Assembly: GCF_029245835.1 (NCBI RefSeq)
Contig: NZ_JAQWOO010000074.1
Span: 1-58,538 of the forward strand
Length of the DNA: 58,538 bases
Reading direction: 5' to 3'
Source: Algibacter sp.
Lineage (GTDB): Bacteria > Bacteroidota > Bacteroidia > Flavobacteriales > Flavobacteriaceae
This document shows positions 46,306-51,341 of this stretch, one piece after another. The notes under the pieces are model-generated. The model searched no databases. It saw nothing but the letters and a program-made list of their open reading frames with translations, and was not told where the DNA came from. Both the position numbers and the translations under genes were made by a program. How positions within the stretch are numbered: position 1 is the first letter of the stretch; every line of letters starts with the position of its first letter.

Positions 46306-47337
46306 ATGATTAAAAACGATTTATTTTTAAGAGCACTAAAAGGAGAAACCGTAAACCGTCCACCAGTATGGATGATGCGTCAAGCAGGACGCTACCTTCC
46401 AGAATTCATGGAAATTAAGGCTAAATACGATTTCTTTACGCGTTGCCAAACTCCAGAATTAGCAAGTGAAATTACCGTGCAACCTATTAGAAGATACGGA
46501 ATGGATGCTGCGATTTTATTCTGTGATATTTTGGTTATTCCTCAAGCCATGAATATTGAGGTACAGATGAAACCTAATTTTGGTCCGTATTTACCAAACC
46601 CGGTTCGCTCTCAAAAAGATGTGGATAATGTTATCGTTCCAGACGTAAAAGAATCTTTAAGCTACGTATACGAAGCCATAAAAGCCACAAAAGAAAAACT
46701 TAATGATGAGATTCCATTAATAGGATTTGCGGGTTCACCGTGGACTATTTTATGCTATTGTGTGCAAGGTCAAGGCAGTAAAAACTTTGATAAAGCTAAA
46801 GAGTTTTGTTTTACTAACCCCATTGCTGCTCACCAATTATTGCAGAAAATAACCGATACAACCATTGCCTATCTTAAAGAGAAAGTAAAAGCCGGATGTA
46901 ACGCGGTACAAGTATTCGATTCTTGGGGAGGCATGCTCTCTCCAGTCGATTATCAAGAATTCTCATGGCAATATATCCAACAAATTATAGACGCTTTAAA
47001 AGACGATGCTCCGGTAATTGCATTTGGTAAAGGCTGTTGGTTTGCATTGGGGGAAATGGCAAAATCTGGTGCTTCGGCTCTAGGTGTAGATTGGACGTGT
47101 TCTCCAAGAAACGCGCGCTATTTAACGGGTGGAAACATTACCCTACAAGGTAATTTCGACCCAACGCGCCTATTTTCTCCACCTGCAGAAATCAAAAAAA
47201 TGGTGCACCAAATGATTAACGAATTTGGTAAAGACAAATACATCGTAAACCTTGGCCACGGTATATTACCCAACATCCCTTTAGATAATGCCAAGGCTTT
47301 TATTGATGCCGTTAAAGAATATAAAAGCCCCTCTTAA
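46306..47337 (+). CDS. hemE: Uroporphyrinogen decarboxylase
   Basis: The 343-residue enzyme decarboxylates uroporphyrinogen III to coproporphyrinogen III. Hallmark [17 protein letters not shown] is near the N-terminus with FCDILVIP (catalytic Asp), [12 protein letters not shown] and [14 protein letters not shown]. Standard length. It follows the four helix bundle gene by 44 bp and is separated from the EI24 gene by 153 bp that contain a palindromic repeat. Confidence 0.95.
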
Positions 47338-47490: not shown

Positions 47491-48249
47491 ATGATTAAAA
47501 ACATCATTTCAGGAATTAAAGCATACTTCGGCGCTTTCAGTTTAATTTCAAAATTAAAACTTTGGAAGTATTTTGCAGTTCCTATGCTAATTAGTTTCAT
47601 AACAGCAATTGTTGTCTTTGGTTCAGCTTACGGATTATCAGATAACATTGGTGCTTTTATTTCCAAAATATGGGTTTGGGATTGGGGAGACGACACATTT
47701 TCTTCAATTAGTAATTTTATTGGTGGATTATTAGTATTAGTCATCGGGCTCATACTTTTTAAACACATCATAATGGCATTATCTGCGCCATTCATGAGCC
47801 CCGTTTCAGAAAAAATAGAAGTGCATTTTACTGGCAATCCTCCGCATTCACATAGAGACACCTCCTTTATGCAACAACTATCTAGAGGTATGCGTATTAA
47901 TGGTCGAAACTTGTTGATGGAATTACTACTAACCATACCCATTTTACTTTTAAAGTTCATTCCAGTAGTCAATATATTTTCAACCATTTTGCTATTTATG
48001 GTGCAGGCATATTATGCAGGTTTTGGTAATATGGATTATACTTTAGAACGTCATTTTCAGTATAAAGAAAGCTTACAATTTGTCCGTAAACATCGTGGTT
48101 TAGCCATAGGTAACGGTATTGTTTTCATTCTATTTTTATTAATTCCAATAATAGGCGTAATTTTAGTGCTCCCTTTATCGGTTACAGCAGCTTCAACTAG
48201 AACAGTAGAGGCACTTCAACTTAAAAATAAACCTATACATGCGGCTTAA
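47491..48249 (+). CDS. EI24 domain-containing membrane protein
   Basis: The 252-residue protein has about six hydrophobic helices, including FAVPMLISFITAIVVFGSAYG, GLLVLVIGLILF and VFILFLLIPIIGVILVLPL. It has the EI24/CysZ family pattern FMSPVSEKIE and RNLLMELLLTIPILLLKFIPVV. CysZ members carry sulfate, but others are uncharacterised; association with heme genes is common in this family of bacteria. It overlaps the next gene by 11 bp. Confidence 0.75.
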   Translation: MIKNIISGIKAYFGAFSLISKLKLWKYFAVPMLISFITAIVVFGSAYGLSDNIGAFISKIWVWDWGDDTFSSISNFIGGLLVLVIGLILFKHIIMALSAPFMSPVSEKIEVHFTGNPPHSHRDTSFMQQLSRGMRINGRNLLMELLLTIPILLLKFIPVVNIFSTILLFMVQAYYAGFGNMDYTLERHFQYKESLQFVRKHRGLAIGNGIVFILFLLIPIIGVILVLPLSVTAASTRTVEALQLKNKPIHAA

Positions 48250-48781
48250 TTTCGGCTCATATCATATTATACCAATTCATCCCAAAGATGGTTGGAACAT
48301 GTGCAACTTTATTGTAGCTAATGAAGACCGATTAAAAAGCTATTTCCCATTAACATTAGAACAAAACTTAACCCCCGATTTATCAAATATTTTTGTCGCA
48401 AAAAAGGCTAAGAAATTTGAAGCTAAAGAAGAGTTTTTATTCACTTTAAAAAAAAATGAGTCCAGTAAATTGGTTGGTTTAGTGTATGTTAAAGAAGTAG
48501 ATTGGGACAAAAAGCAAGGTGAATTTGCCTATTGTATAGATTACAATTTTGAGGGTAAAGGATTAATAACGGAAGCTATACAGCAATTATCAGATTATGC
48601 CTTTGACATATTGGGTTTAGAAACACTACAAATCATTTCGCATAAAAGTAATATTGGCAGTATTAAAGTGGCTGAAAATAATAATTTTACTTGGATTAAA
48701 ACACTTAAAAATGAGTTTACACCTCCTGAAGGAAACGCACTAAACATGGAGCTTTATGAGTTGTATAACGAGATTGAGTAG
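48239..48781 (+). CDS. GNAT N-acetyltransferase, RimJ/RimL-like
   Basis: The 180-residue protein resembles ribosomal-protein N-acetyltransferases: KLVGLVYVKEVDWDKKQGEFAYCID, then YNFEGKGLITEAIQQLSDYAF (CoA-binding loop), QIISHKSNIGSIKVAENNNF. Substrate unknown. It overlaps the EI24 gene, so both are co-translated. The RAYT element starts 12 bp after it. Confidence 0.8.
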   Translation: MRLNFGSYHIIPIHPKDGWNMCNFIVANEDRLKSYFPLTLEQNLTPDLSNIFVAKKAKKFEAKEEFLFTLKKNESSKLVGLVYVKEVDWDKKQGEFAYCIDYNFEGKGLITEAIQQLSDYAFDILGLETLQIISHKSNIGSIKVAENNNFTWIKTLKNEFTPPEGNALNMELYELYNEIE

Positions 48782-48792
48782 TTACGTAACGG

Positions 48793-48825
48793 AGACCTGT
48801 CAGGTTTTAAAAACCTGACAGGTCT
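48793..48825. repeat. REP palindrome, left of RAYT
   Basis: AGACCTGTCAGGTTTT-A and its complement, a perfect 16-bp inverted repeat around a single base. Related copies at 2848-2877, 49367-49399 and 57587-57617. Confidence 0.8.
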
Positions 48826-48851
48826 ATAAAAAAAACAAAAGCATAGTTTGA

Positions 48852-50333
48852 ATGGAAAAATTAGAAAAAGACCACTACTATCATATTTTTAATCGAGGAA
48901 TTAATAGCAGTATTATTTTCCAGGGTGATGATAATATGTCTTATTTCTTAAAATTAACTGAAAAACATTTAACAAATAACGTTGATATCATTGCTTACTG
49001 CTTAATGAACAATCATTTTCATTTGGTTGTGAAAATCATTTCAGAAGAATCCTTAGCTACACAATCATTCTCAAACCTTTTTAATGCTTATGCTAAAGCA
49101 TTTAACAAACAACAAAATAGAACTGGAACTCTTTTTGAAAGACCTTATAAGAGAATTAAAATTCAAAATGAAACATACTTAAAGAACTTGATTCTATATA
49201 TTCATAAAAACCCTGAATTGCATAATGTTGTTAAAAACTTTAAAGATTATAAGTTTTCATCATATCACTCCTATGTAAATGAGGATTTAAAGTTACTTTC
49301 AGAGGAGAAAAAATATATTCTAAATTTGTTTGAAGATATTAACAACTTTAGATATGCACACAAATCAGACCTGTCAGGTTTTGAAAACCTGACAGGTCTT
49401 AATAATCAAAATAAACCAAAAACCATCAAAAACAAATTCTACCAATACATCCAAGATTTACAAGACCGTATTACGTCAAAACTTGAAGCCATCGACGTGA
49501 AAGCCAAATTCCAAGAAGACCTTTGGGAACGACCAGAAGGTGGCGGTGGACGAACCCGTGTGATTGAAAATGGAAACGTTTTTGAAAAAGGAGGTGTTAA
49601 TATTTCTGGTGTTCACGGTAAATTACCAAAATCTATGCAAGCCTATTTTAAAGTAGGCGAAGTCGATTTTTTTGCCTGCGGTTTAAGCTTGGTATTGCAC
49701 CCAAAAAACCCAATGGTGCCTACAGTTCATGCGAATTGGCGTTATTTTGAGATGTATGACAAAGACGGAAAAATTATAGATAGTTGGTTTGGAGGCGGAC
49801 AAGATTTAACGCCTTATTACTTGTTTGAAGAAGATGCTATACACTTCCATAAAACCTGTAAAACAGCATGTGACAAACACAATTCTGAGTTTTATCCAAC
49901 CTACAAAAAACGATGTGATGAGTATTTCTATAACGCACACAGAAATGAAGGCAGAGGTATAGGTGGTTTGTTTTTTGACTATTGTAAAGCATCCGATGGT
50001 ATGACTATGGAAAATTGGTATAACTTTGTAACCGAAGTTGGTGATAGTTTCCTGGAAGCCTATGTGCCGATAGTTGAAAAACGGAAAGATTTACCATATA
50101 CAGAAGCACAACGTAATTGGCAAGAAATTCGTCGTGGTCGTTATGTAGAATTCAATTTAGTGCATGATAAAGGCACGCTTTTCGGGCTAAAAACAAACGG
50201 CAGAATTGAAAGTATTTTAATGAGTTTGCCACCGCATGTACAATGGGTTTACGACCATCATCCGGAAGCTGGAAGTGATGAAGAAAAATTAATTGAGGTA
50301 TTGAAAAATCCAATAGACTGGATGAACAAATAA
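48852..50333 (+). CDS. hemF: RAYT transposase fused in frame to coproporphyrinogen III oxidase
   Basis: The single 493-codon frame joins two proteins. Residues 1-170 are a REP-associated tyrosine transposase: YHIFNRGIN, the HUH motif NNHFHLVV (H55, H57), catalytic Tyr80 in FNAYAKAFN, GTLFERPYKR and YIHKNP. Residues 172-183 (DLSGFENLTGL) are encoded by a REP. HemF, the oxygen-dependent coproporphyrinogen oxidase, begins about 192 (IKNKFYQYIQDL) and continues with WERPEGGGGRTRVIE, VHANWRYFEMYD, GGGQDLTPYY and GRYVEFNL. The expected HemF ATG is ATC (49425-49427). Next possible start is GTG at 49497, which would lose about 24 residues. Likely a recent insertion. Confidence 0.85.
   Translation: MEKLEKDHYYHIFNRGINSSIIFQGDDNMSYFLKLTEKHLTNNVDIIAYCLMNNHFHLVVKIISEESLATQSFSNLFNAYAKAFNKQQNRTGTLFERPYKRIKIQNETYLKNLILYIHKNPELHNVVKNFKDYKFSSYHSYVNEDLKLLSEEKKYILNLFEDINNFRYAHKSDLSGFENLTGLNNQNKPKTIKNKFYQYIQDLQDRITSKLEAIDVKAKFQEDLWERPEGGGGRTRVIENGNVFEKGGVNISGVHGKLPKSMQAYFKVGEVDFFACGLSLVLHPKNPMVPTVHANWRYFEMYDKDGKIIDSWFGGGQDLTPYYLFEEDAIHFHKTCKTACDKHNSEFYPTYKKRCDEYFYNAHRNEGRGIGGLFFDYCKASDGMTMENWYNFVTEVGDSFLEAYVPIVEKRKDLPYTEAQRNWQEIRRGRYVEFNLVHDKGTLFGLKTNGRIESILMSLPPHVQWVYDHHPEAGSDEEKLIEVLKNPIDWMNK
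49367..49399. repeat. REP palindrome inside the RAYT-hemF frame
   Basis: AGACCTGTCAGGTTTT-G and its complement; 33 bp, same as the left copy except for the centre base. It is 25 bp before the point where HemF begins and would form a strong hairpin in the message. Confidence 0.8.
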
Positions 50334-50351: not shown

Positions 50352-51341
50352 ATGTATCCACTTAGAAGAAACCGCAGATTAAGAACCAACGAAGCCATAC
50401 GTTCCTTAGTTCGAGAAACCATAATTACACCAAACGATTTTTTAGTGCCTCTTTTTATCGTTGAAGGTAAAGGTATAAAGGATGAAATTCCGTCGATGCC
50501 CAATTACTTTCGTTATAGCTTAGATTTGTTGGAAGGCGAAGTAAAAGCGCTTTGGAAACTGGGTTTAAAATCGGTTTTACTTTTTGTAAAAGTCCCTGAT
50601 AATTTAAAGGATAATAAAGGTACTGAAGCACTAAACCCAAACGGATTGATGCAACGCGCTATAAAAACGGTTAAAAATGTATGTCCAGACATGTTAGTGA
50701 TGACGGATGTTGCTCTTGACCCCTATTCAGCTTACGGACATGATGGTATTATTGAAAACGGACAGATAATTAACGATGAAACGGCTGAGTTTTTAGCAGA
50801 AATGAGCATCTCTCACGCACAAGCTGGTGCAGATTTTGTTGCGCCTAGCGATATGATGGATGGTCGCATTCTTACTATTCGTGAAGCTTTAGAAGATGAA
50901 GGGTTTATTAACACAGGCATCATGAGTTATTCGGCTAAATATGCTTCTGCCTTTTATGGCCCTTTTAGAGATGCTTTGGATTCAGCTCCTGTAGATTTAT
51001 TAGATATTCCAAAAGATAAAAAAACCTATCAAATGGATTACGCTAACCGTTTTGAAGCTATTCGGGAAACCGAAATGGATATTGATGAAGGCGCAGATAT
51101 TGTCATGGTAAAACCAGGTTTATGCTATTTGGATATTGTACGCGAAATAAAAAATGAAGTAGATGTTCCTGTTGCGGTTTATCAGGTTTCTGGCGAATAT
51201 GCCATGTTAAAAGCTGCTGCTGAAAAAGGGTGGTTAGACCATGATGCTGTTATGATGGAGCAGGTTACAGCAATGAAACGTGCTGGCGCAGATATTATAG
51301 CATCTTACTTTGCAAAGGATGTTGTTAAATTACTTTCGTAA
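50352..51341 (+). CDS. hemB: Porphobilinogen synthase
   Basis: The 329-residue enzyme condenses two 5-aminolevulinate molecules to porphobilinogen. The Schiff-base lysine lies in MVKPGLCYLDIV, and the second active-site Lys region near SYSAKYASAFYGPFR. The metal-site segment reads DVALDPYSAYGHDG, with Asp/Ala in place of the Cys triad, so the enzyme is probably the Mg-dependent type rather than zinc. It is 18 bp after the RAYT-hemF gene, ending the heme operon or joined to the following genes. Confidence 0.95.
   Translation: MYPLRRNRRLRTNEAIRSLVRETIITPNDFLVPLFIVEGKGIKDEIPSMPNYFRYSLDLLEGEVKALWKLGLKSVLLFVKVPDNLKDNKGTEALNPNGLMQRAIKTVKNVCPDMLVMTDVALDPYSAYGHDGIIENGQIINDETAEFLAEMSISHAQAGADFVAPSDMMDGRILTIREALEDEGFINTGIMSYSAKYASAFYGPFRDALDSAPVDLLDIPKDKKTYQMDYANRFEAIRETEMDIDEGADIVMVKPGLCYLDIVREIKNEVDVPVAVYQVSGEYAMLKAAAEKGWLDHDAVMMEQVTAMKRAGADIIASYFAKDVVKLLS

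Follow-up and report, generated by a model that had tools for sequence, protein, structure and literature searches.

A RAYT transposase lineage at the hemF locus of Flavobacteriaceae, probably translated as a chimera with the heme enzyme

According to PMC8049555, RAYTs are single-copy genes that are inherited vertically, do not replicate themselves and have an exact function that is unknown. For Thauera, PMC2817692 infers that a RAYT was acquired horizontally, and the abstract of PMC6006769 reports a patchy RAYT distribution and proposes horizontal movement. The latter paper gives median lengths of 151-325 aa for the RAYT subclasses, states that proteins longer than expected, whether gene fusions or annotation errors, were removed, and notes atypical structures in the Bacteroidetes subclass 2.6. 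It also describes in-frame REP insertions in tnpAREP of subclass 2.4, generally between the HuH and Tyr motifs. The RAYT analysed here resembles that subclass in having a REP inside an unbroken frame; however, its REP forms the linker to another protein. It shares with RAYT/TnpAREP proteins the HuH and Tyr motifs, flanking REP-like palindromes with further genomic copies, and the 4er8 fold. Unlike known RAYTs, it is stopless, continues through its REP and has a housekeeping enzyme, HemF, as its C-terminal part. Fusions of transposases with host genes are found in eukaryotes, where splicing joins a transposase domain to a host protein, and the DNA-binding part is usually retained as a regulator. 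The present fusion differs from these in arising among bacterial heme genes by reading through a REP, in its metabolic enzyme partner, and in a block that has moved between genera. No report of a RAYT-HemF fusion was found in the literature searched, outside which most subscription papers lie. It would constitute a recurrent bacterial chimera of transposase and metabolic enzyme, with a linker encoded by the transposase's own palindrome.

The window is the whole 58,538-nt stretch analysed, contig NZ_JAQWOO010000074.1 of an Algibacter sp. genome. In the region of interest, hemE (uroporphyrinogen decarboxylase, 46306-47337, Pfam URO-D), EI24, a GNAT acetyltransferase (48239-48781, Pfam Acetyltransf_3), RAYT-hemF and hemB (delta-aminolevulinic acid dehydratase, 50352-51341, Pfam ALAD) follow one another on the forward strand, with the GNAT gene immediately 5' of the fusion. 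In several relatives that have no RAYT here, the GNAT stop overlaps or abuts the hemF ATG, and these represent empty sites. The RAYT-HemF frame is free of stops from end to end (48852-50333, 493 codons), as the initial annotation had stated. It comprises a RAYT domain (residues 1-170, 48852-49361), a linker of 22 codons (49362-49427) and a HemF domain (oxygen-dependent coproporphyrinogen III oxidase, 49428-50333). Pfam recovers both parts from the 493-aa translation: Y1_Tnp at residues 7-120 (27.5 bits, cut-off 23) and Coprogen_oxidas at residues 196-490 (453.7 bits, cut-off 31.8). The HemF domain is complete, scoring above the curated cut-offs of NF003727 (425.6, cut-off 297) as well as PF01218, as full-length HemF proteins do. 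It is unlike the usual HemF in its N-terminal nuclease domain and in the frequent absence of its own ATG among fused loci. The RAYT profile NF047646 scores 49.1 on the window RAYT, against a cut-off of 80. The RAYT assignment draws on the Pfam match, on invariant alignment columns and on fold: a Foldseek search found TnpAREP 4er8_A (E 7.5e-6, probability 1.00, TM 0.66 by target), and also recovered HemF structures. In the AlphaFold model of the fusion (mean pLDDT 68.6, 19 related rows) the RAYT domain is well folded, pLDDT falls below 50 at residues 175-189, and much of the second half of HemF is weak. The REP-encoded linker is short and probably flexible.

Two perfect REP palindromes flank the RAYT, at 48794-48824 (GACCTGTCAGGTTTTAAAAACCTGACAGGTC) and at 49368-49398, in agreement with the initial annotation. 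Both were located by pattern search, and none is expected in dinucleotide shuffles of the window. The second falls inside the reading frame, where it contributes DLSGFENLTG to the linker. The window's genome has five perfect copies, the two around the RAYT and three elsewhere, while a control pattern has none. The exact pattern is present in nine of 13 genomes searched: 16 copies in G260, 13 in G036, 15 in G248, one or two in each of G153, G385, G125 and G157, and two in G044, whose hemF lacks a RAYT, in addition to the window's own genome. It was found neither in G265 nor in the fused genomes G074, G168 and G134, some of whose linker REPs differ from that of the window in sequence. The tetranucleotide GT[AG]G, as read from the sequence, is at the foot of neither window REP. 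Because of this, and because subclass 2.6 is atypical, the window RAYT was kept out of the canonical subclasses; in the scheme of PMC6006769 it is of the Bacteroidetes type and could fall in subclass 2.6 or 2.4.

At the usual position of the HemF start, the last linker codon (codon 192 of the frame, 49425-49427) is ATC (Ile) in place of ATG. Counting from HemF codon 2, no in-frame ATG, GTG or TTG occurs between a TTG at -34, within the RAYT, and a GTG at +23, within HemF. Both observations bear out the initial annotation. Its description of the pathway as essential was overstated: hemF has one match in this genome, the fused copy, and hemN (TIGR00538) is above cut-off elsewhere in it, so that the coproporphyrinogen step may have a second enzyme. 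Of 19 genomes checked, 18 have hemN above cut-off, so HemF is not necessarily essential in these either.

The fusion is present in 17 of 397 genomes of the family Flavobacteriaceae, with 17 differing genus codes, and 33 distinct fused loci, including the window, were read. The suggestion that it is an accident particular to one strain thus does not hold. A search with the whole fusion against 299 family genomes gave 12 (the window's own included) matched over approximately the full length in a single frame of 490-553 codons. Fused loci occur in Algibacter, Hyunsoonleella, Winogradskyella and Flaviramulus. In Seonamhaeicola aphaedonensis (L056) and Dokdonia sinensis (L106) a RAYT lies beside hemF and is unfused. 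The L056 RAYT protein is identical to that of the fused locus L049; four extra bases before the hemF ATG break the frame, and the HemF ATG is kept. With the RAYT alone as query, 79 of the 397 family genomes have a match. The window's own genome has a second, free-standing RAYT (G000:C48:6401-6907), 46% identical to the fused one. A 430-codon frame is found at a weak RAYT match in L233 (G088:C41). Outside the family, no near full-length RAYT match with a long frame was seen among the matches listed for 395 genomes of the class. A partial match in G692 (L232:303-1421, reverse strand) lies in a frame of about 372-379 codons that has a RAYT-like start followed by unrelated sequence and matches no Pfam family.

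The reading we consider very probable is that a RAYT lineage of Bacteroidetes type resides at the hemF locus and is translated as a RAYT-linker-HemF chimera, with the HemF start decaying after fusion. The fused RAYT frame, having no stop of its own, runs through the 3' REP into HemF. Translation would begin at the RAYT ATG and yield one two-domain protein, a HuH/Tyr nuclease followed by HemF; species that keep the HemF ATG may make free HemF too. Since translation can enter from the RAYT, the HemF ATG would become dispensable, and it has decayed, as to ATC in the window. Once it is lost, the enzyme would be obtainable only as a chimera, the RAYT would be indispensable for HemF production, and loss of the RAYT would mean loss of HemF. 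Many fused bacteria thus apparently have HemF only as a hybrid with a transposase. The RAYT domain, with its catalytic residues kept, presumably still acts on REPs. From sequence data we infer that the fusion protein is made, and that both HemF and the RAYT are active in it. Joining a heme enzyme that afterwards loses its own start would be a route to RAYT persistence. A more tentative extension, possible though doubtful, is that this is a transposase lineage specific for the hemF start site, which spreads among Flavobacteriaceae to the junction immediately 5' of hemF, poised to fuse, and would ensure that it persists by capturing the translation start of the enzyme, in a kind of "addiction by gene fusion" with the REP as a portable in-frame linker.

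The RAYT domain itself looks functional. In the window it has the HuH motif at H55/H57 and the tyrosine motif Y116-I-H-x-N-P (motif forms from PMC6006769), and H55, H57 and Y116 are invariant in an alignment of 19 fusions. Among 41 hemF-linked RAYTs, the HuH motif is kept in 40 and the Tyr motif in all; the exception, fused RAYT L151, has lost one HuH histidine. Of 17 pairs compared, 14 give a RAYT dN/dS of 0.06-0.19; the value is 0.33 for L036/L049, which are very close, and two pairs with saturated dS gave no estimate. Most dS exceed 0.7, which makes the values rough, and one pair (L113/L148) includes an unfused RAYT. HemF dN/dS in the same comparison is 0.02-0.05. These ratios indicate purifying selection on the RAYT codons.

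Conserved catalytic residues and low dN/dS would also be seen if the RAYT domain had been co-opted, that is, if it were selected because it serves HemF or heme control, for instance by binding REPs and so tuning heme gene expression, or by oligomerisation. Such co-option is the strongest of the alternatives, though we consider it unlikely to be the explanation. It would account for the frame being open in 12 of the 18 adjacent-RAYT loci that still have the HemF ATG, and for the REP-like palindrome that is also seen by eye 5' of the RAYT in most junctions examined. However, linkers vary from 18 to 69 codons among the 31 fused loci compared, and the AlphaFold model, weak in much of HemF's second half, is no guide to whether the domains touch. 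Among 10 genomes of the window's genus that were searched, its own included, four have the fusion and six have no RAYT at hemF, and free-standing RAYTs occur elsewhere in the family; these too are unfavourable to co-option.

Translation as a chimera is further indicated by the linkers, compared together with start codons and motifs in 31 of the 33 fused loci (L207 and L210 were used in dS comparison only; L144, L146, L155, L158 and L165 were dropped from RAYT counts as duplicates, and L206 duplicates L036). All 31 linkers are free of stops in the coding frame, compared with six and two in the other frames. The stops number 0, 55 and 121, respectively, and Markov-simulated linkers are stop-free in about 23% of cases on average; kinship is ignored in these figures, as in the counts of loci generally. 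The open frame thus looks to be under selection. A REP palindrome is recognisable by eye in 29 of the 31 linkers. In most loci it is read in one shared frame and in L044-L046 in a different one, so the REP itself does not set the frame. The stop counts argue against an incidental open frame, in which HemF would be made separately by internal initiation at the ATC, at a linker codon or at the internal GTG, a reading that is improbable overall.

The start codons bear on the same question. In 74 hemF rows without a RAYT, the start position holds ATG in 67 and TTG in five, and in the remaining two (L084 and L091) an ATG lies two and four codons upstream. By contrast, ATG is lost in 19 of the 31 fused loci, 18 of them without any usual start codon at that position, while none of the six unfused loci among the 37 where a RAYT adjoins hemF has lost it, although six is a small number. 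The replacement codons are ATC, ATA, GTC, GTA, GTT, GTG, CTC, TTA, TTT and ACC, of which only GTG (L048) is a usual start. The near-cognate ATC and ATA make up 10 of the 19, and ATG is kept in 12 of the 31 fused loci, L044 of Winogradskyella psychrotolerans among them, as internal initiation would allow. Other in-frame starts also lie in or close to the linker of several ATG-lost loci: ATG at -22 in L041-L043, -28 in L161, -21 in L163 and -33 in L047, and GTG at -3 in L164 and -1 in L048. In L147 and in L037 of Algibacter pacificus, however, there is no in-frame ATG, GTG or TTG from codon -60 to +30. The ATC or CTG start that the initial annotation had considered for HemF is unlikely, because related fused loci carry ACC, TTA, GTA, GTT, CTC or TTT at that position. 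Its other proposal, the internal GTG, is unlikely because this codon replaces a consensus Gly codon of the 19 fusions (IDGKAKF). The replacement codon encodes Ile, Val, Leu or Phe in 18 of 19 ATG-lost loci, which gives weak support for a constrained residue at the former HemF start, as most single changes of ATG yield residues of this type anyway. The best trees imply seven changes between kept and lost ATG (RAYT tree, 31 rows) or nine (HemF tree, 30 rows), with many branches open; the HemF ATG thus appears to have decayed more than once.

The hemF-linked RAYTs (31 fused, six adjacent and four near; n=41) form one clade (100/98) relative to 15 RAYTs from elsewhere, the latter being a subset of the better RAYT matches and the bootstrap not settled (correlation 0.983). 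The best 21 RAYT matches in the 397 genomes are all 0-3 kb 5' of hemF. Many unrelated insertions of ordinary RAYTs, made by chance in front of hemF, would be compatible with the patchy spread of the fused state on the best HemF tree, where it changes 21 times (shuffled mean 26.6), with more than half of the inner branches open and only four changes forced by well supported branches (L109 and L152, with short flanks, and eight duplicate HemF rows were dropped). Such insertions were rejected as an explanation, and are very improbable, given the single clade and the position of the best matches. A sequencing or assembly artefact, conceivable in a window from a single draft genome of 100 contigs, has a negligible probability: L034 (G260) has the same fusion with the same ATC, which also makes a sequencing error at 49425 unlikely, and the fusion is found in 31 further distinct loci.

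The residence of the RAYT lineage at hemF appears in part to be old. RAYT and HemF distances are correlated across 37 loci (Mantel r 0.47, 0/2000 permutations as high). Between the window and L034, RAYT dS is 1.21 and that of the neighbours 0.85-1.29, all near saturation. Both results are as expected if RAYT and HemF have been together for a long time.

Other comparisons point to exchange. Between L036/L206 and L049, dS is 0.08 in the RAYT block and 0.97-1.36 in EI24, GNAT, HemF and HemB. Identity between L036 and L049 rises from about 0.80 to about 0.97 over the RAYT block alone, and the borders of this near-identical stretch fall no more than about 30 bases from the GNAT stop and from the HemF start. 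Thus, at least once, the RAYT block has moved alone between genera to the same junction. This arrival of a RAYT block by itself at the same site in another genus is what goes beyond the earlier proposals of horizontal movement. Short near-identical stretches lie on both sides of the block; insertion catalysed by the RAYT and homologous recombination via the flanks were both considered as the route. In the Winogradskyella pairs listed, RAYT divergence between L047, L048 or L050 on one side and L041-L045 on the other is 45-52%, whereas HemF divergence is 2-7%. The sisters L016 and L035 have 94% DNA identity from the hemF start onward, and the insert fits precisely between TAG, the stop of the GNAT gene, and the ATG of hemF, with no bases lost; no target-site duplication was seen in this comparison. 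Gain in L035 and loss in L016 were both considered. Together with the dS contrast, these comparisons show an element that persists, that has been gained or lost, and that on at least one occasion moved by itself.

Several minor observations were made at individual loci. In L035, a REP palindrome directly 3' of hemF (L035:4480-4530) is missing in the sister L016, a hint that the REPs are still mobile. A piece of a further RAYT (residues 4-33, 67% identity) is found in L041 on the 5' side of the fused RAYT, approximately 700-780 bases from hemF, which looks like the displacement of one RAYT by another. Between L044 and L050 (Winogradskyella), HemF dS is 0.23 and EI24 dS is 1.38, with RAYTs 56% identical; here hemF itself seems to have been exchanged by recombination.

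A fusion of a RAYT to a different host gene was found in G224:C16 (L231:1618-4695), where another RAYT runs in frame through a REP into a Pif1-like helicase. No other match covers both parts of this pairing among the matches listed for 249 family genomes. Since this RAYT also reads through its REP, exit through a REP into a host gene is hinted to be a more general capability of RAYTs. In L231 the helicase ATG is kept, near full-length relatives of the helicase have frames of about 805-870 aa, and a copy of the REP also separates the HuH from the Tyr motif within the RAYT.
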